A stretch of 64,000 bases of DNA from NCBI GenBank assembly GCA_021156365.1, contig JAJNDK010000007.1, positions 124,001-188,000 of the forward strand, read 5' to 3'. Below the pieces are notes generated by a model. That model had not been told where the DNA came from. It searched no databases and saw only the letters and a program-made list of their open reading frames with translations. This stretch comes from Bacteroidota bacterium (lineage in GTDB: Bacteria > Bacteroidota > Bacteroidia > B-17B0 > Aurantibacillaceae). The first letter of the stretch is position 1. Each line of letters begins with the position of its first letter. Position numbers and translations under genes: made by a program. Below are positions 11,162-49,417 of this stretch, piece after piece.

Positions 11162-11755
11162 CTACTGAATAATTCCCTGCTGATGAATGGCTCCGACAAA
11201 TACGGGTATAAAAAGCAGGCAGGATTTGTGCAGGTTGTTGGTGACACCATAATTACGTGTGTACCAATTATCAAAGTCGTTCGAAAAATCTGTTCGCATA
11301 TCCATTACATGCGTTCCGTTGCGGTAAACAGTCCAGTTATCCCAGTCATTTGAAAATGTTGTTTTGATCGAATAGGTATCACCTGTTGTATAATCTTTTA
11401 ATTCCCAGTTGTCCCAATCTTCGGCAAACACGGTTTTAAGTGTTACCTGGTGTCCGGGGAAGCTAAGTTGCCAGTTGTCCCAGTCCTCAGAGAAGACAGT
11501 GCGCATACTCATTGTAGAACCGTTTGCAGTAATGTTCCAGTTATCCCAATCGTTGCTGAACACCGTGCGGAAACTACCGGAAACACTGTCGATACTATAG
11601 GTCCAGTTATCCCAGTCATTGCTGAACACAGTGCGTAGATCACCCTGGCTGGATGTGCCGGTTCCCGGGTACACAGGATTTCCCGATGGGGTAACAGGCT
11701 GTTTCTCGCATCCTGCCAGGCTCAATAAAAAGAATAGAATAACAGCGTACTTCAC
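11162..11755 (-). CDS. Lipoprotein with six WDNW repeats
   Basis: The protein starts with a lipoprotein signal (VKYAVILFFLLSLAGC); Cys16 is the lipidation site. I chose GTG at 11755 because the -7 box TATATTTG (11773-11780) lies inside the longer frame that begins at 11794. The mature part is almost entirely six copies of an 11-residue core, consensus xRTVFSNDWDNW, spaced 22-24 residues apart (cores at about 41-51, 63-73, 85-95, 107-117, 131-141 and 154-164). It ends in a hydrophobic tail, LLFIPVFVGAI. I recognise no named family. The regular spacing and Trp/Asp pattern suggest a small repeated beta structure, possibly a sheet or propeller-like solenoid on the cell surface. Confidence 0.65.
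   Translation of the reverse strand: MKYAVILFFLLSLAGCEKQPVTPSGNPVYPGTGTSSQGDLRTVFSNDWDNWTYSIDSVSGSFRTVFSNDWDNWNITANGSTMSMRTVFSEDWDNWQLSFPGHQVTLKTVFAEDWDNWELKDYTTGDTYSIKTTFSNDWDNWTVYRNGTHVMDMRTDFSNDFDNWYTRNYGVTNNLHKSCLLFIPVFVGAIHQQGIIQ
11264..11635 (-). repeat. Six tandem ~66-72 bp coding repeats
   Basis: Each unit encodes the (R/K)TxFSxDWDNW core. Unit length is 66 bp for the first three intervals, then 72 and 69 bp. The DNA copies remain clearly similar (CCAGTTATCCCAGTC recurs on the + strand), so the array grew by tandem duplication of whole units. Confidence 0.85.
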
Positions 11756-11772
11756 AAAAAAAGTTTCTCTAA

Positions 11773-11780
11773 CAAATATA
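11773..11780 (-). promoter_or_regulatory. -7 box of the WDNW repeat lipoprotein
   Basis: Reading the minus strand, TATATTTG lies 17 nt before the GTG at 11755. No -33 match is obvious. Confidence 0.5.
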
Positions 11781-11817
11781 TTCAAATTGCACATTAATTA
11801 CTAATTTCCGCAAACCT

Positions 11818-19024: not shown

Positions 19025-19969
19025 TTATTCAGTGCTTCCCAAATGCACTAGGGCATCTCCCACATTCACCACCGGCTGGTTATTGATCCCCACTACATAT
19101 CCGCTGATCGGGGAATAGATCTTTTCCTCCGTTTCGCCGTAAGGGCTGCACAGGGAGCCGATCACTTCATCTTTGTCTACAAAAGATCCGTTGGCCTTAT
19201 TGAAATGGAAAAGCCCCGACATCTTTGCACGCACCCAGGTATCTTTCTGGATCTTTACAAAAGGGTTGGGTGGAACATCGATATCGATCATTCCATAGTT
19301 TTTCATCAGTCGCAGGCAGCCGTTCACTCCTTCGTTTATGGCATTGTAATCGAAGCGCAGCGATTCACCGCCTTCATATACCAAAATAGGTTTTCCTTTT
19401 TTAGAAGCTTCTTTACGTAAAGTTCCGTCTCTGTATACCGAATCGATAATGAGCGGGGCGGAAAATCTTTCGGCCAGCTCCAGGTTCGCCGGGAAATTAT
19501 ATACACAGCGGATCTGCGGATAGTTATTGATCTTGGCTCCTCCTGTATGAAAGTCAACTCCGAAATCGATGATGGGCAGGATCTGTTTCATCATATCGTA
19601 GGCCACGCGGGCGCCTAAGGATCCGTTCTTATTCCCCGGGAAACAGCGGTTGAGGTCTCTTCCGTCGGGCAGGTCGCGCGATCCGAATAAAAAAGATACG
19701 ATATTGATCACCGGGATAGCGATCAGGCTCCCGCATTTGAGCTGTTGTACATCCGGTCGGGTGATCACTTTGCGCAGGATCTCGATGCCATTGGTCTCAT
19801 CACCATGCATACCTGCGCTCAGCAGCAGGGTAGGGCCTTTGTTGTTGGAACGATAAACGTGTACAGGGATCTCGATCGATGTTTTGGTAGGAAGGAAATA
19901 CGTGTTTAAAGGAATGGTTTTGTTCTCGCCGGGTTTTATAACGTGCCCGTTAATGTTGAAATCTGTCAT
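19025..19969 (-). CDS. Succinylglutamate desuccinylase/aspartoacylase-family (M14-like) hydrolase
   Basis: This 314-residue zinc carboxypeptidase-fold enzyme shows the metal site GMHGDETNGIEIL (His and Glu ligands at about 54 and 57) and the third ligand in DFHTGG. The C-terminal part (about 225-314) is the beta-rich domain of the family (KAEDGFF-like, GSLCSPYGETEEKIYSPISGYVVG). The family removes acyl or aminoacyl groups from small molecules or peptides. It is the last gene of a three-gene operon behind rimK (gap 8 nt) and a retropepsin-like gene. This implies a role in trimming or recycling glutamylated products, but the substrate is not identified. Confidence 0.82.
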   Translation of the reverse strand: MTDFNINGHVIKPGENKTIPLNTYFLPTKTSIEIPVHVYRSNNKGPTLLLSAGMHGDETNGIEILRKVITRPDVQQLKCGSLIAIPVINIVSFLFGSRDLPDGRDLNRCFPGNKNGSLGARVAYDMMKQILPIIDFGVDFHTGGAKINNYPQIRCVYNFPANLELAERFSAPLIIDSVYRDGTLRKEASKKGKPILVYEGGESLRFDYNAINEGVNGCLRLMKNYGMIDIDVPPNPFVKIQKDTWVRAKMSGLFHFNKANGSFVDKDEVIGSLCSPYGETEEKIYSPISGYVVGINNQPVVNVGDALVHLGSTE

Positions 19970-19977
19970 AAGCGCTT

Positions 19978-20868
19978 TTAGCCTTCGTTGCCGTTAAACT
20001 CATTCCGTTCTACATATTCGATTATTTTTCCGGCGATGTCGATGCCGGTGGCTTTCTGTATGCCTTCCAGTCCCGGTGAGGAATTTACTTCCATTACCAG
20101 CGGACCTCTTTCCGATTGCAGCAGATCCACACCGGCTATCCCAAGTCCTAATTTCTTGGCTGCTTTTATCGCGGTAGCGCGTTCTTCGGCGGTCAGCTGA
20201 ACAATAGATGCAGTGCCACCCCTGTGCAGGTTGGAACGGAACTCACCTTCTTTGGCCTGCCGTTTCATAGCGCCTACCACCTGTCCGTCTATCACGAAAG
20301 CACGGATATCGGCGCCTTTTGCTTCCCGGATGAATTCCTGGACGAGCATGGCTGCATCCAGCTTGAGGAAAGCTTCGATCACCGAAGTAGCCGCTTTTTT
20401 ATTTTCTGCAAGGATCACACCGATGCCCTGTGTGCCTTCTAATAATTTGATGATGCAGGGAGCGCCACCAACGCCTTCTATCAGGCTGTCGATATCTTTG
20501 GTCTGGCTGGCAAAAGCTGTTTTAGGCATGCCTATTCCGGCACGGGCGAGGATCTGCAGACTGCGAAGCTTGTCACGCGAACGAACGAGCGCCTGTGATT
20601 CAACAGCCGTAAAGATCTTCATCATTTCAAATTGCCTTACTACCGCCGCTCCGTAGAACGTAACGGATGCCCCGATGCGCGGGATCACGGCATTGATGTC
20701 TGTGATTTCTTTGCCCTGATAATAGATATGCGGCCTGCCTTTTTCTATCACCACCACACATTTCATGTGGTCGAGCACAACGGCTTCGTGTCCTCTTTTT
20801 TCAGCGGCCTCTACCAGCTGGTTGGTAGAATAAATATTCTTACTCCGGGAAAGTATAGCGATCTTCAT
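19978..20868 (-). CDS. rimK: RimK-family alpha-L-glutamate ligase (ATP-grasp)
   Basis: In E. coli, RimK adds glutamate residues to the C-terminus of ribosomal protein S6 using ATP. This 296-residue homologue begins [15 protein letters not shown]. It carries the RimK signatures [28 protein letters not shown] (ATP-binding glycine loop), [31 protein letters not shown] and the metal-binding [13 protein letters not shown]. Length is standard. It lies between a retropepsin-like protease gene (22 nt upstream) and an aspartoacylase-like gene (8 nt downstream), the arrangement expected for a modify-and-trim module. The target may be S6 or another acceptor. Confidence 0.93.
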
Positions 20869-43311: not shown

Positions 43312-44622
43312 TTAAATCCCCAGTTCTTTCGCGTGTTGCGAGGATTTGGAAGGGTTCCACGGATCCTCGTAGGAACGCTTGAAAAATAATTCATCTATAT
43401 AGGCGATCGTACGCACCACCCTTAGGTATAGCCCGAAATAGAAAACCATGCAGGGCAGGTAGGGAAGAAAATAAACAACCCTTTCGTTCTTGCGTACACG
43501 GAACAAAGAGAAGACCAGGAATTTCATGAAATTGGTAACGGTATACAAAAGAATATTGAAAGGCAGGATAAAACCCAATTGCGAAGTAAAATTGATCGCC
43601 ATGTCCACAATGTAGAACCACCATTTGAAATTGAGCAGGAGGTTATACGTAATGTTCTCAAAGGAAGAAATGAAATTGGAAAATTTGAAGGTTGCATTCG
43701 GGAAAAATACATCGCGGTGTTTACGGACCCGGAAACGGATGATCGATTTATCCCAGCGTAAACGTTGCTTCACTAATTTTTTAAAGGTATTCGGAACACT
43801 GGTCTGGCAAACAGCTTCGGACTCAAATGCAATTTTATAATTCAGCTTCCGGAGCTTTACGGTAATATCGCCATCCAGTCCCGGACCAATATCCCAGCCG
43901 CCCACACGGTCCAGTGCTTCTTTTTTGAAAGCGCCGAAAGCCCCCGATACCACCCGGTAAATACCTAAGTAGCTGGAGGTGATCCTTCCAACCGAAATAG
44001 TATCCGAATATTCGATGGCCTGTAAAGTAGCACAGAGGCTTTCTTTGTAGTTCCGTACCATCACGTTGCCACCAACGGCCCCGATATTGTCATCAAGGTA
44101 AAAAGGAATGATGATCTTTTCGATCGCATCATTGTCATAACTGCAATCCGCATCCAAATGCACTACTATTTTTCCTTTCGAATACCGATACCCTAAGTTG
44201 GCAGCCGATGCTTTCCCACCACGCACATCATTCCGCAGGAAGAGATCGATAAGGCCGTTCTTCTGCAGGCTTTTGCAAATACGTTCGGTATCATCGTCCG
44301 AGCCATCATCAATTACAATGAATTCAATATTGGTGTAGCTCTGTTCTTTCATCGACATCACTAACTTATAGATATGTTTCCCTTCGTTTTTTCCGGGAAC
44401 GATGATACTCACGAGTGGACGGTCGATGAAGAGTTTCTGGCGTGCCACTTCATAACGCATTTTACGTGTTTCTTTTCCAATGCGCCAGATGATGAGTGTA
44501 GTGAGCTCGAACAGGAAGAAACGAAGGAATTCGAAGAACACAAAGAACCAAAAGATCCTGATCAGCTTGTTAGCTCCGACCGCTGCAATGTAGCTGAAAA
44601 AGTTATCTATCGACTCAATCAT
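43312..44622 (-). CDS. Processive family 2 glycosyltransferase (exopolysaccharide synthase)
   Basis: This 436-residue membrane protein has two N-terminal helices (about 15-48) and three or more C-terminal ones. The cytoplasmic GT-A domain has all four signatures of polymerising synthases: VSIIVPGKNE with Asp105/106 (DDGSDD), the DAD at 157-159, the catalytic-base region LDGD (249-252) and QRLRW (286-290). Layout and length resemble PgaC/HasA-type synthases, which polymerise and translocate one polymer. It is the last gene of the four-gene operon and overlaps the TackOD1-like gene by 8 nt. The sugar donor cannot be read from sequence. Confidence 0.88.
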   Translation of the reverse strand: MIESIDNFFSYIAAVGANKLIRIFWFFVFFEFLRFFLFELTTLIIWRIGKETRKMRYEVARQKLFIDRPLVSIIVPGKNEGKHIYKLVMSMKEQSYTNIEFIVIDDGSDDDTERICKSLQKNGLIDLFLRNDVRGGKASAANLGYRYSKGKIVVHLDADCSYDNDAIEKIIIPFYLDDNIGAVGGNVMVRNYKESLCATLQAIEYSDTISVGRITSSYLGIYRVVSGAFGAFKKEALDRVGGWDIGPGLDGDITVKLRKLNYKIAFESEAVCQTSVPNTFKKLVKQRLRWDKSIIRFRVRKHRDVFFPNATFKFSNFISSFENITYNLLLNFKWWFYIVDMAINFTSQLGFILPFNILLYTVTNFMKFLVFSLFRVRKNERVVYFLPYLPCMVFYFGLYLRVVRTIAYIDELFFKRSYEDPWNPSKSSQHAKELGI

Positions 44623-46060
44623 GCTGTTCGGTTACGGCCTTGGTAAGCTCCTGCAGTTGTTTTTCGAAAGCCCCTTCGGTATTCAGCGGTGCTGTTTTAT
44701 AATGCATCACCAGCTGGAATTTATTGAAGTTGTTGAACACCATCTCCTCGATCTTATCGTTCACTTTCTGCATGAGCTGCAAAGCATCTGTACTTACCGT
44801 ATCATTCATGCAGATCAATATAAGCGAAGGGTTGGAGATATTGATGAAGTCGGCCGGTGTGATATTTTCGCGGATCAGCTGCACGAGCTCGGTGATAAAA
44901 GCTTTCTCTTTCGATTTGCCCAATTTACGAAGCAGGTCGTAGATGTTCTCGATGTGCAGTACGGCGATCGTGGTGTTTTGGGAAGTATTGTGTTTGATGC
45001 GCTCCTGTTCGTAATGCATCATTGTATTGAATGTCTTATGATCTACCGCGCCGAATACTTCTTCCATCCCGCCGTATTCGGAAGTGATAATGCCAGAAGT
45101 AGCAGCGTTCCTTCCTTTTTTGGTAAGACGGTACACATTGATATTTTTGGAAACAAGGTATTGCACATCCGAATCTGTTTTGCACTGAAGGCAAAGCGCT
45201 TTCACAATATAATCCTGGAACACTTCATTGCAGGTGAGGCAGTGATTGATGATGGATGGTTTATCATAATCAACACCGATATGGCGCAGCGCCTTGTTGC
45301 ATTTAGGGCAATTGAGCACGGAATCCACTTTGTTCTTGAAATCAGAGATGGGCCCGATATTCCCGCAGGGGAAGTGATGTATAAGGTCTTCCGATTTCAT
45401 ATTGGCTGAATCGCAGCTCGGGCAGATCTCGCGATACGACAGATGTCCTGCCCCGCAGGAGTTGCAGAGGTATACACGGTCATAAAAATCCGGCCAGATC
45501 AGGTTTTCTTTTTGTGCCCAGTCCAGTATTTCCAGCACTTTGGTTTCCTCGAACGGCTCAAAATTTATACTTAACAAAGGATAGGTGAAGCCAACCGCCG
45601 AATTCAGGTTCGGATACGGTTTGAATGAACGAAGCTCCCGCGTATACATGTAGTTCAGGATCTTTTTCATCAGCAACACTTCGAACGAACCGGACGGACT
45701 GTTATCGATGTGTGTCGAACGGACAAACAATTCCTGAATATCGTTTACTTTTTCGGGGATCTGGTCAAAAGAAACAAGGATGCCATCATGCAGGTGCTCG
45801 ATGATCGGATCGCCGGAGCTTTTGTAATTGATAAGGAAAATAGGTTTCAGGTAAAATTCGGGATTGGAATGCGAACGGAATTTCTTCAGGATGATCCGTG
45901 TGAAATCCGCATCATTGGCTTCCAGTACAATGGCATCGTATCCTACGAGGTGATCGATCTTCAGCCCGCTGAAACTTTCGAACAGGTAGAGATGCTGGTT
46001 CTCGTAGTTGAGAACATTGTTGTCAAATTCTATGCGTGATTTATGTTTAGTGGTTTCCAT
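44615..46060 (-). CDS. TackOD1-like metal-binding protein with degenerate GGDEF-like domain
   Basis: This 481-residue protein without signal peptide or membrane helices should be cytoplasmic. Residues 1-115 look like a receiver-type alpha/beta domain. Residues 195-295 are cysteine-rich, with CxxC pairs at 199/202, 213/216, 251/254, 274/277 and 290/293 plus a HHFPCG motif (228-233). The order and the CPKC...LRHIGVDY segment resemble the TackOD1 output domain. Residues 363-460 have GGDEF-like strands, but where GG(D/E)EF should be (about 407-416) the sequence is ISNPSLILI, so it cannot make c-di-GMP. It is coupled to the synthase gene (8-nt overlap) and probably regulates it. Confidence 0.7.
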   Translation of the reverse strand: METTKHKSRIEFDNNVLNYENQHLYLFESFSGLKIDHLVGYDAIVLEANDADFTRIILKKFRSHSNPEFYLKPIFLINYKSSGDPIIEHLHDGILVSFDQIPEKVNDIQELFVRSTHIDNSPSGSFEVLLMKKILNYMYTRELRSFKPYPNLNSAVGFTYPLLSINFEPFEETKVLEILDWAQKENLIWPDFYDRVYLCNSCGAGHLSYREICPSCDSANMKSEDLIHHFPCGNIGPISDFKNKVDSVLNCPKCNKALRHIGVDYDKPSIINHCLTCNEVFQDYIVKALCLQCKTDSDVQYLVSKNINVYRLTKKGRNAATSGIITSEYGGMEEVFGAVDHKTFNTMMHYEQERIKHNTSQNTTIAVLHIENIYDLLRKLGKSKEKAFITELVQLIRENITPADFINISNPSLILICMNDTVSTDALQLMQKVNDKIEEMVFNNFNKFQLVMHYKTAPLNTEGAFEKQLQELTKAVTEQHD

Positions 46061-46079
46061 GTAGGTCTTGTACGCTTAT

Positions 46080-47213
46080 TCAATATTTGAATTTGGAGAT
46101 GTCGACACTCATTTTATAAAAGGTTCGCCATTTGCCCATTTCCTCTCCATTCACCGGGTAAATATCGCCGGCAATGCTTCGTGTGGTAGGTTCGTATTTT
46201 TTCTGGAATTCTTCCGGAAGGGTGTAGGTAGCAATGTAAAAACGTTTCAGGTAACCGAGGCTGGTCGATCCGTCGGGGAAGGTGATCTTGAACACATCAC
46301 CCTCTTTGAAATGCCCTACATCTTCCTGGTCAAAGAAGGCCTTGATATAAGCAGGGTGATCTTTGTGCAGTGTCATAATATCTTCCGATTTCAAAGCCGT
46401 TTCAAACGAATGCACATAGATCCGTGTGATGATGCCATCCATCGGAGCTCTGAAATAACGATTTTCGCTGAGGAGCTCGTCGCTGAATTTGATCTCCTGT
46501 CTTTTCATGTAGTCGGAAAGGCCACCGCCACTACCACCACCTGCATTTACTTTAATATCCTTTGCTTCATATTTTGCTGTGTTGTCAAATGGTTTTAATG
46601 TTTTCATCAAAGCATTCAGCTCTCCGTTCTCACTCCGCAGTTTATAATTCTGGGTTTTCAGCTTCATGATCTCTGTCTGCACATAATCAAGGCGTTGTTT
46701 TGGCAATACATCGAGGATCACTTCGTTGGTAAGACGCTTCAGTTCATTTTCATAATTTTTGATCAGCTGACCGTTTTCTACAATGGATACATTGTTGATC
46801 GCCATGTTTTTTTTGATATTATAGATCTCTTTCAGCCACCAGTAATCCTTATTACCTGTGGAAGTAACGCCACCCAGGGCCAGGGAAGAAGCGCCGGAGC
46901 CATCAGTATCCTGGTCGAGGTCCAGGGAATAGCTGAAAAGCGTATCATCCTTGCAAATGCTGTCTCCTTCGTGCACATACATTTTGTCAAGGCGGGCATC
47001 ATCGGTCAGGCGGATCTTGGTGCTTTCAATGATCACGTGACCGAATGCATGCACCATTACCAGCTTATTTAAAAAATAATAAGCCATGAAAAGAACAAAA
47101 GCAAAAAGCAGAAGCAGGTACACGATGCGGTCCCAGTTCCTTCGCTTTTTTATCTTTTTCTCATTCGTGATCCGGATGAGCGATTTATTTCGTTGAAAGT
47201 TTAAACTTTTCAT
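46080..47213 (-). CDS. HlyD/Alg44-like periplasmic adaptor protein
   Basis: This 377-residue membrane-fusion protein has one N-terminal helix (about 30-50, YLLLLFAFVLFMAYYFL), a split barrel-sandwich (VIIESTKIRLTDDARLDKMYVHEGDSICKDDTLF, residues about 58-92; RAPMDGIITRIYVHSFETALKSED, about 255-280), a coiled-coil hairpin (about 130-205) and a beta-barrel with KAFFDQEDVGHFKEGDV. It would bridge the inner-membrane synthase and the outer-membrane channel. A glycine-rich insert (AGGGSGGG, near 223) precedes the second half. Its ATG overlaps the upstream stop by one base (TAATG). Confidence 0.88.
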   Translation of the reverse strand: MKSLNFQRNKSLIRITNEKKIKKRRNWDRIVYLLLLFAFVLFMAYYFLNKLVMVHAFGHVIIESTKIRLTDDARLDKMYVHEGDSICKDDTLFSYSLDLDQDTDGSGASSLALGGVTSTGNKDYWWLKEIYNIKKNMAINNVSIVENGQLIKNYENELKRLTNEVILDVLPKQRLDYVQTEIMKLKTQNYKLRSENGELNALMKTLKPFDNTAKYEAKDIKVNAGGGSGGGLSDYMKRQEIKFSDELLSENRYFRAPMDGIITRIYVHSFETALKSEDIMTLHKDHPAYIKAFFDQEDVGHFKEGDVFKITFPDGSTSLGYLKRFYIATYTLPEEFQKKYEPTTRSIAGDIYPVNGEEMGKWRTFYKMSVDISKFKY

Positions 47214-49417
47214 TATTTCCCCTCGTCTTTTATCTGGATGTCTGCTTTATCCAGTTCGAGCAAACCCTCGTAATCGTGATAAGCAGTATGCCTGATGCCG
47301 ATTTTCTTAAAATGCTCGTTCATTTGCTGCCTGCTCTCAAAATCCTTGGTGCGTAATGCCAGTACTACTTTGTCTTTGTTAAGAGCGATCTCTTCGGCTA
47401 TTTTTTTAGTGATGACTTCCACCTTCACATTTTCGTAAGCCATCAGGTATACCTGGTCGCACACACTGAATATTTTTTTCAATACGGTGTCCGGGTAATG
47501 AAGCGGAATGGAAATGCTCAGCCGCAGGTTTTTTCGCTTGCAGAAAACCGCAGCCGAATCCAACAGCTTCATATATTTGCTGAAATAGGCGTCTTTATTC
47601 TCTTTGAAGTCAGGCAGTGTATGTGGCTCCACATCAAGGTGCAGGCCTTTTACAAAATTCAGGGGAAGCTGACTGGCCAGGCTGTCTGAAAAAGCCCTGA
47701 ATTTCCCATCAATGAGATTGTTGTTCCCTGTCATTACAGATATGGTGCGGCTGTAATTTTTGTTGATGAATGCATTCAGCTGTTTGATGTATTGCTTGTC
47801 ATTTTTATACGAAATGATAAGATGGTTAAAATCATTCAGGTCGCAGTATTCCGTTACCATTTCCGGGGTATAGCTCAGCAGCGATTTGCTCCAGATATAC
47901 ACGGCTTTTACATCCGGGTTGCTGAAGCTTGTATCTTTTACATCATTTTTAATCGTAACCGGGAAGGTGAATTCATTGATCTCTGTGCCGGGCACCTTTT
48001 CCTTGATGTTAAGCAGGATCTTGTACATGTCCTGGTGAAGGTCCAGTAGCTCAACTGCATTGCTCCAGTAGTCGTCCAGGATAAAAAGAGCAGTATTGGG
48101 ATTGAACTCCAGGTCGCCGAATTCCTGCTTCACTTTTTCTGTCCGCACATATTCTGCAAATACATTCCGTTTTTCGATCAGGTTAAAATATTTCTTCAGC
48201 TTGTACCTGTACTCGTAATAATAATTCAGCAATAGATATTCAACACCCGGCTCGCTATGGCTACTGAGTTTTTGCTGCTGGAATTCCAGCTCTTTGTTCA
48301 CGAGGTAGAGCTCCTTTTTTTCTTTGCCTGAAAATGTAAGCGGCATGGAAAGATTCAGTCCAAAAGAGACAAAGCTCCTGTTCCCGATATTCTGCGTATA
48401 CACATCGTAATAATTGTAGCGGGTGTATGCTTTCAATCCGATCTCCCGTAAATACTTCGATTCGTATTCTGCATTTTTCAGCAGGGATGCCGGAAGGGAA
48501 GTGTCTGAGGCCTGTGTGATATAATTTATTTTTTTTAGCAGCTTGTCAAAATCAACATCCAGAAGCGGTGTTTCCAGTGTGTCGTTCGGGCGTATGCTCA
48601 TCTGCATGGCCTTTTCGGAGAACGAGCTGTAGAGCTCAAAAAGCCCGTTGATATCGGTTTTGTTCTGGATGGCTTTCAGGTAATCGTCTTTGGTGATGTG
48701 TTTGTAGGCCCAGAGTTTTTCGATCACCTCCATTTGTTTTGCATTCAGCTCTTTTCGTTTTTGGAGTATGCTGATCTTTTTCAGGTTGAAATTGGCAACG
48801 ATCTGTTCGCCGCTGATCAGGAATGCACGGTTATTCTTTTGAACGAAATCGGAATGTTTGATAAAATCCACTTCATTCTTCAGCGTTTTTACTTTCAGCC
48901 GGTTGTCATAGAGTCCGCCCTTCAGCAGATCCCAGTCAAGTCCGAATTGTGCTTTTTGCCGGAACACCACCACATCTTCCTGGTCTACAAAAGGTGCGCT
49001 GCTGTTGCGCTGATAACCGGCTGTAAAATTCAACCCCACATCTTTTTTATAAATGCGCTGCTGCAGGAAATTCCTTCTTAATAATAATTCACTTCTTTTA
49101 TTGGCAATGACAAGCCGGGAGCTGGCAGTAACATTGGTAGGTTTTTGCGAATGATCGTTCAGCAGCTCATTAAAAGTCTCTTTGTTATGGCTATCCCAGA
49201 TAGCGGTCAGTTGGCCAATGTAGCTGCTTATAACAGAGTCGATTTTCGGATTGCTTTGGGCATAAGACGGACACGAGCTAAATAGTATTAGCTGTAGAAG
49301 AAGTAGTATAATTCCGGCCTTAGTCAGAAAGTAGGTTTTAGGGGCGGTAAATATAGTAATAAATACTGAACCGGAAAGATAGACGGAGGTATTCTGTATT
49401 TTATCGATAAAAAACAA
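47213..49417 (-). CDS. TolC-like channel fused to a glycoside-hydrolase-like TIM barrel
   Basis: This protein of up to 734 residues has a signal peptide, then a TolC/outer-membrane-efflux-like region (about 60-475) with two sets of long helices and two strand pairs (VGLNFTAGYQRN, FGLDWDLLKGGLYDNRLK; SFGLNLSMPLTFSGKEK, position 351-367). The last 230 residues (about 505-734) form a predicted TIM barrel with GLHLDVEPH (Asp595, Glu597) and YLMAYE (657-662), as in GH18-type hydrolases. No ATG or GTG is available upstream of the signal peptide. The open frame starts at TTG 49417, but a CTG at 49327 (giving LTKAGIILLLLQ...) fits the signal and the -7 box better. It is the first gene of the exopolysaccharide operon. 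Confidence 0.72.
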   Translation of the reverse strand: MFFIDKIQNTSVYLSGSVFITIFTAPKTYFLTKAGIILLLLQLILFSSCPSYAQSNPKIDSVISSYIGQLTAIWDSHNKETFNELLNDHSQKPTNVTASSRLVIANKRSELLLRRNFLQQRIYKKDVGLNFTAGYQRNSSAPFVDQEDVVVFRQKAQFGLDWDLLKGGLYDNRLKVKTLKNEVDFIKHSDFVQKNNRAFLISGEQIVANFNLKKISILQKRKELNAKQMEVIEKLWAYKHITKDDYLKAIQNKTDINGLFELYSSFSEKAMQMSIRPNDTLETPLLDVDFDKLLKKINYITQASDTSLPASLLKNAEYESKYLREIGLKAYTRYNYYDVYTQNIGNRSFVSFGLNLSMPLTFSGKEKKELYLVNKELEFQQQKLSSHSEPGVEYLLLNYYYEYRYKLKKYFNLIEKRNVFAEYVRTEKVKQEFGDLEFNPNTALFILDDYWSNAVELLDLHQDMYKILLNIKEKVPGTEINEFTFPVTIKNDVKDTSFSNPDVKAVYIWSKSLLSYTPEMVTEYCDLNDFNHLIISYKNDKQYIKQLNAFINKNYSRTISVMTGNNNLIDGKFRAFSDSLASQLPLNFVKGLHLDVEPHTLPDFKENKDAYFSKYMKLLDSAAVFCKRKNLRLSISIPLHYPDTVLKKIFSVCDQVYLMAYENVKVEVITKKIAEEIALNKDKVVLALRTKDFESRQQMNEHFKKIGIRHTAYHDYEGLLELDKADIQIKDEGK
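49348..49355 (-). promoter_or_regulatory. Possible -7 box of the synthase-dependent operon
   Basis: Minus-strand TATATTTA (one mismatch) lies 20 nt before the CTG at 49327 and inside the frame starting at TTG 49417. The -33 region is not clear. Confidence 0.3.

Follow-up and report, generated by a model that had tools for sequence, protein, structure and literature searches.

In a 64,000-nt stretch of the genome of a Bacteroidota bacterium from the family Aurantibacillaceae (assembly GCA_021156365.1, contig JAJNDK010000007.1, positions 124,001–188,000; hereafter the window), four intact, co-directional and tightly packed open reading frames on the minus strand (43312–49417) encode a TolC-like outer-membrane factor (OMF) fused to a hydrolase-like barrel, a HlyD-type periplasmic adaptor, a control protein harboring a TackOD1 domain and a processive family-2 glycosyltransferase (GT2). 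With a probability of roughly 0.7 this cassette is a self-contained synthase-dependent exopolysaccharide machine, the core of which works like the Mxd system of Shewanella and the polymer of which is most likely rich in N-acetylhexosamine (HexNAc).

The gene borders are those given in the initial annotation of the window. The OMF-hydrolase gene (47213–49417, 734 aa; its start is uncertain, the start codon being a TTG at 49417) overlaps the adaptor gene (46080–47213, 377 aa) by 1 nt, and a gap of 19 nt separates the latter from the TackOD1 gene (44615–46060, 481 aa), which in turn overlaps the GT2 gene (43312–44622, 436 aa) by 8 nt. A periplasmic bridge and an outer-membrane pore are encoded together with the synthase, the pore being TolC-like and not a porin linked to tetratricopeptide repeats (TPR). 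The cassette is real and conserved, and probably a complete export set for an exopolysaccharide.

Conservation of the cassette

Strong TackOD1 matches were found in nine further genomes of a phylum sample, belonging to two other families, and the regions around these matches carry the same set of genes with alignable counterparts of the fusion, HlyD, TackOD1 and GT2 proteins. Among 84,980 species genomes scanned, 320 relatives were found, and the best 80 of these were examined. Culturable carriers of the cassette include Crocinitomix catalasitica ATCC 23190 (L075) and Brumimicrobium glaciale (L088). Of 90 Bacteroidota loci, 79 have the genes on one strand in the order OMF-HlyD-TackOD1-GT2, and the median gaps between successive genes are 2, 3 and −1 nt. 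The other 11 loci are either cut by contig ends, contain fragmented genes, or correspond to L079, which begins inside the cassette and has an inserted deacetylase-like gene.

Among 87 genomes of the order to which the source genome belongs, the 24 that contain the TackOD1 family PF18551 are exactly those that contain this GT2 (E <1e-60), and the fusion gene is found in 23 of these as well as in one other. Given the same gene order in 79 loci and this identical presence, the arrangement is far beyond chance. The four genes remain adjacent to each other in relatives whose flanking genes differ, and from this co-occurrence with changing flanks the cassette is therefore regarded as a patchily distributed unit. 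The co-occurrence proposed as a check in the initial annotation is thus found, and the gene set is kept widely outside the source genome.

The GT2 synthase

The GT2 matches the Pfam family Glycos_transf_2 with an E-value of 5.1e-26, and each motif previously read from the sequence was located in the protein, namely DDGSDD (residues 105–110), DAD (157–159), LDGD (249–252) and QRLRW (286–290). The DDGS, DxD and QxxRW signatures of processive membrane GT2s are present together with transmembrane (TM) helices, and the QRLRW motif along with the hydrophobic segments at both ends of the chain fits a processive membrane synthase. A PilZ domain was not found in the protein by Pfam. The best NCBI model is PgaC_IcaA (E 5.4e-52, 177 bits; next model 92 bits), its equivalog cut-off of 422 not being reached. 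By this model, the QxxRW motif and the membrane helices the enzyme groups with processive synthases and not with non-processive transferases. A maximum-likelihood tree places the Bacteroidota GT2s linked to TackOD1 in one clade (support 100/100), which groups with the corresponding Pseudomonadota enzymes (97/93), apart from PgaC/IcaA, NodC, BcsA, WcaA and RfbN; the deeper placement is unsure because the references are few and several of them are long-branched.

A GT2 that does not polymerise or that makes oligosaccharides (NodC-like or lipid-modifying), with HlyD and TolC exporting a small glycoconjugate, appears improbable. The NodC, HpnI and MftF models match the GT2 as well, at lower scores, and HlyD/TolC pairs mostly serve small molecules, or proteins, in company of a pump. 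However, PgaC_IcaA leads by a wide margin (177 versus 92 bits), the QxxRW motif is combined with hydrophobic segments at both ends, deacetylase and hydrolase accessories are found, and the cassette contains no pump gene, neither of the ATP-binding cassette (ABC) nor of the resistance-nodulation-division (RND) or major facilitator superfamily (MFS) type.

The adaptor and the channel with its C-terminal barrel

The adaptor possesses one N-terminal TM helix (residues ~30–48) and matches the NCBI models type_I_hlyD (E 3.2e-8) and RND_mfp (E 4.5e-6), both below their cut-offs; the Pfam HlyD_3 match is sub-threshold as well. The fusion protein is composed of a signal segment, the TolC-like OMF and a C-terminal (β/α)8 barrel, and its Pfam OEP match also stays below threshold (E 0.0026, 18.1 bits versus a cut-off of 22). 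The AlphaFold2 model calculated with 62 relatives (pLDDT 83.2) agrees with the channel-barrel fusion proposed initially. Residues ~32–486 (47960–49324) form two long helical hairpins and four β-strands, i.e. the topology of a TolC protomer, and Foldseek retrieves TolC/OprM-type channels (E ~1e-5) besides PgaB.

The barrel (residues ~500–731; 47225–47920) resembles those of glycoside hydrolase family 18 (GH18) and PgaB. GH18-type barrels align with it at Z-scores of 17–19, and VIA-align superimposes it on 1jnd (Z 18.7, rmsd 3.0, 225 aligned) and on the PgaB C-terminal domain (4p7o; Z 18.1, rmsd 3.4, 222 aligned). Just after barrel strand 4 it harbors a GH18-like DxE motif, D595-x-E597 (47627–47635). 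Of the complete GH18 signature DxxDxDxE the segment GLHLDVE keeps the DxE half only, which is invariant in all 62 aligned full-length relatives. In these D595, E597, M659, Y661, D692 and D715 are all strictly conserved, with M659 and Y661 placed on barrel strand 6 in the model. The C-terminus of TolC is periplasmic, and the barrel should therefore be located in the periplasm in three copies per channel trimer.

Comparison of the loci depicts the fused hydrolase as frequent yet not obligatory, an option rather than a fixed part, because the gene stops after the TolC part in L028–L030 and the barrel is degenerate in L022 and L031. In the three barrel-less loci a ~650-aa protein with a C-terminal DUF4114 is inserted between the HlyD and dehydrogenase genes, possibly as a replacement part.

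The best GT2 model, the superposition of the barrel on PgaB and the NodB-type deacetylases of some loci would also suit a disguised Pga system, which makes the same polymer, poly-N-acetylglucosamine, but with a TolC-like channel standing in for PgaA and the hydrolase half of PgaB moved onto that channel. This is considered unlikely. The tree places the GT2 outside the PgaC/IcaA pair, its score is far below the equivalog cut-off, and no PgaA-, PgaB- or PgaD-like gene is found among the four genes or their conserved neighbors, the genome as a whole not having been searched for them. Moreover, the barrel carries a GH18-type DxE, whereas the second catalytic residue is absent from the GH153 domain of PgaB (PMC5933820). 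The cassette thus shares with Pga the nearest synthase profile and a similar barrel, and differs from it in using an adaptor/TolC route instead of the PgaA TPR porin with PgaB and PgaD.

The TackOD1 control protein

The control protein has no TM helix and comprises a receiver-like N-terminal domain, a zinc-ribbon TackOD1 domain and a degenerate GGDEF domain. PF18551 is matched with an E-value of 1.7e-52 and 178 bits versus a gathering score of 32. The TackOD1 domain (residues 132–312; 45125–45667) contains invariant CxxC pairs and the motif HIGVDYDKP; the CxxC/HxxC pattern is present, and its cysteines are invariant. In agreement with the initial annotation, the AlphaFold2 model (pLDDT 89.4) shows a GGDEF fold for residues 332–481 (44618–45067), with NPSLI at the A-site and TPAD at the I-site. 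The GGDEF domain of DosC aligns with it (Z 18.2, rmsd 2.4, 147 aligned), and a sequence profile match to 3ign is found at E 9.6e-7. The structure re-alignment lists were each filled by one domain and scarcely cover the N-terminal and TackOD1 parts; the N-terminal domain is receiver-like by secondary-structure reading, not by a database match. In L023–L027 a receiver domain occupies the place of this N-terminal part (Response_reg at 1.2e-21 in L025). A separate ~110-aa gene next to the receiver (REC)-TackOD1 gene of these loci resembles the N-terminus of the window protein, which would correspond to a swap between receiver and receiver-like domains.

None of the 90 proteins of the TackOD1 loci has an intact GG[DE]EF motif, and the RxxD motif of the I-site is kept in 32 of 91 proteins. 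No GGDEF or PilZ domain protein is detectable in the source genome, and a GGDEF match is present in only one of the 87 genomes of the order, where it contains an internal stop. Because of this near-absence, of the missing GGDEF and PilZ proteins and of the TPAD sequence at the I-site, control of the cassette by cyclic di-GMP (c-di-GMP) is unlikely in this host. A degenerate-GGDEF regulator would then be retained in genomes apparently devoid of c-di-GMP synthesis.

TackOD1 is a domain with an obscure role; in archaea it accompanies REC and winged helix-turn-helix domains and is also encoded close to loci for type IV pili (PMC5847659). From this one might take the control protein for a transcriptional or pilus-related regulator placed in the operon by convenience only, which is rather implausible. 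Its gene overlaps translationally with that of the GT2 (median −1 nt), both have an identical genome distribution, and the association with a GT2 is also found in Pseudomonadota and in a haloarchaeon. The archaeal REC-TackOD1 response regulators share the combination of TackOD1 with a receiver domain (PMC5847659) but have no described link to polysaccharide synthases. A candidate role for TackOD1 is that of a control module of such synthases.

Comparison with Mxd and other export systems

The initial annotation considered the cassette as a possibly distinct route of Bacteroidota. The TackOD1-GT2-HlyD core is, however, also present outside this phylum. On a Roseibium plasmid a GT2 gene adjoins a REC-TackOD1 gene and a HlyD-like gene, and further trios in Pseudomonadota are those of Phyllobacterium, Palleronia, Alisedimentitalea, Plesiomonas, Aminobacter and Photobacterium. 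The Methylocystis locus shows a weak match for the adaptor and, ~1 kb downstream, a gene of the TolC family. The Plesiomonas and Photobacterium proteins consist of TackOD1 and a degenerate GGDEF domain with RDTD I-sites. On a haloarchaeal plasmid (L122:6052-9013) genes for TackOD1, a deacetylase-like DUF2334 protein and a GT2 stand in a row; the link between domain and synthase may reach archaea.

In the mxdABCD system of Shewanella oneidensis, MxdA harbors a degenerated GGDEF domain (PMC3409153) and binds c-di-GMP and CheY3 (PMC7666153), MxdB belongs to the GT2 family and MxdC resembles an efflux pump (PMC3691769). The poorly understood Mxd, which serves the biofilm matrix, resembles the core of the cassette in encoding together a control protein with degenerate GGDEF domain, a GT2 and an efflux-type adaptor (PMC3691769, PMC3409153), and the gammaproteobacterial TackOD1-GGDEF/GT2/HlyD trios share the order of mxdA-B-C. 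The cassette differs by its built-in OMF-hydrolase gene, by TPAD at the I-site and by a host without detectable GGDEF or PilZ protein. Since its order is OMF-HlyD-TackOD1-GT2 and not control protein-GT2-adaptor, it is described here as Mxd-like but is not filed as Mxd.

The nearest proposed GT2-HlyD-TolC route is the export of cyanobacterial cellulose by XcsAB-TolC with a separate glucanase, XcsC; according to a 2025 review it still awaits validation by experiment, and its genes do not form a single operon (PMC12430437). The types of components, i.e. GT2 synthase, HlyD adaptor, TolC channel and glycanase, are the same (PMC12430437). In the cyanobacteria, however, TolC is encoded elsewhere, the glucanase is separate and XcsA contains a PilZ domain, which is found neither in the GT2 described here nor in its source genome, whereas the cassette is one operon with the hydrolase fused to the channel and with a TackOD1 regulator. 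In the Pel system a control protein with degenerate GGDEF domain, PelD, likewise serves a synthase (PMC8461298), but PelF is a soluble GT4, and PelD has a GAF domain, TM helices and an intact RxxD motif and lacks TackOD1.

In view of XcsAB-TolC with XcsC and of Mxd, the original statement that no described system has this set was too strong (PMC12430437, PMC3691769, PMC3409153). What looks new is the presence of all parts in one operon, the fusion of hydrolase and channel and the apparent loss of c-di-GMP control.

Accessory genes and the polymer

Eleven loci encode a NodB-type deacetylase protein with a type IX secretion system (T9SS) tail within the cassette or close to it, and four have the gene for a TviB-like UDP-sugar dehydrogenase inside the cassette. 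These accessories hint at a HexNAc-type polymer. As a fixed part of the cassette the dehydrogenase was rejected, being inside it in these four loci only. In the source genome a dehydrogenase of 55% identity is encoded 40 kb away; its neighbors look WbpB- and WbpD-like by eye, and this enzyme may serve another glycan. Proteins with a CotH kinase domain, lamin-tail and T9SS sorting domains are encoded in 19 loci (e.g. L043:12779-15412), mostly directly downstream of the GT2 gene.

Proposed mechanism

For the chemistry, flux, complex formation and control of the machine we infer the following. The membrane-embedded GT2 would polymerise a UDP-HexNAc-type sugar and thread the chain through the inner membrane, gated from the cytoplasmic side by the TackOD1 protein in response to a phosphorelay, a metal or another signal different from c-di-GMP. 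The HlyD-type adaptor would bridge the periplasm, the TolC-like trimer would let the chain out, and the three periplasmic GH18-like barrels may trim or clear the polymer as PgaB or BcsZ do.

Several observations weigh against this interpretation. The scores of the HlyD and OEP matches are both sub-threshold, the Pfam scan of the fusion protein gives no glycoside hydrolase family for the barrel, and L022 and L028–L031 lack the barrel or have a degenerate one. Deacetylase and dehydrogenase genes do not adjoin the operon in the source genome. In Bacteroidota the HlyD gene precedes the core and does not follow it as in Mxd, and the proposed link to Mxd is drawn from published descriptions and from the gammaproteobacterial trios, a TackOD1 domain in MxdA being putative.

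More tentatively, and with chances somewhat below even, the cassette may represent a widespread, previously undescribed class of exopolysaccharide secretion, in which a single operon supplies the complete conduit from synthase to TolC, the channel trimer incorporates a glycoside hydrolase and a zinc-ribbon TackOD1 protein gates the synthase independently of c-di-GMP; Mxd in Proteobacteria would rest on the same TackOD1-GT2-HlyD core. The orphan Mxd machinery would be tied to a family present in at least two bacterial phyla. The cassette would also provide a part list for the TolC/HlyD route of long polysaccharides, so far proposed for cyanobacterial cellulose (PMC12430437).

Other genes of the window

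Export of the cassette product by a Wzx/Wzy or ABC route was considered and rejected; Wzc-, Wza- and WbaP-like genes lie elsewhere in the window. Scattered glycan genes of the Wzx/Wzy type between 17525 and 39070 appear to form a second, separate polysaccharide route. They encode a WbaP-like sugar transferase (17525), a WecA-like protein (25571), a Wzc-like kinase with a tyrosine-rich tail (27207), a Wza-like export protein (29680) and flippase-like (35199), Wzz-like (36667) and O-antigen-ligase-like (37598) proteins. A small, secreted-looking protein encoded at 11162–11794 (minus strand) has about six degenerate repeats of the FSNDWDNW type, with no Pfam match and no tandem repeat detected at the DNA level. 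At 19025–20868 (minus strand) a RimK-like ATP-grasp ligase is encoded beside an AstE/AspA-type desuccinylase.

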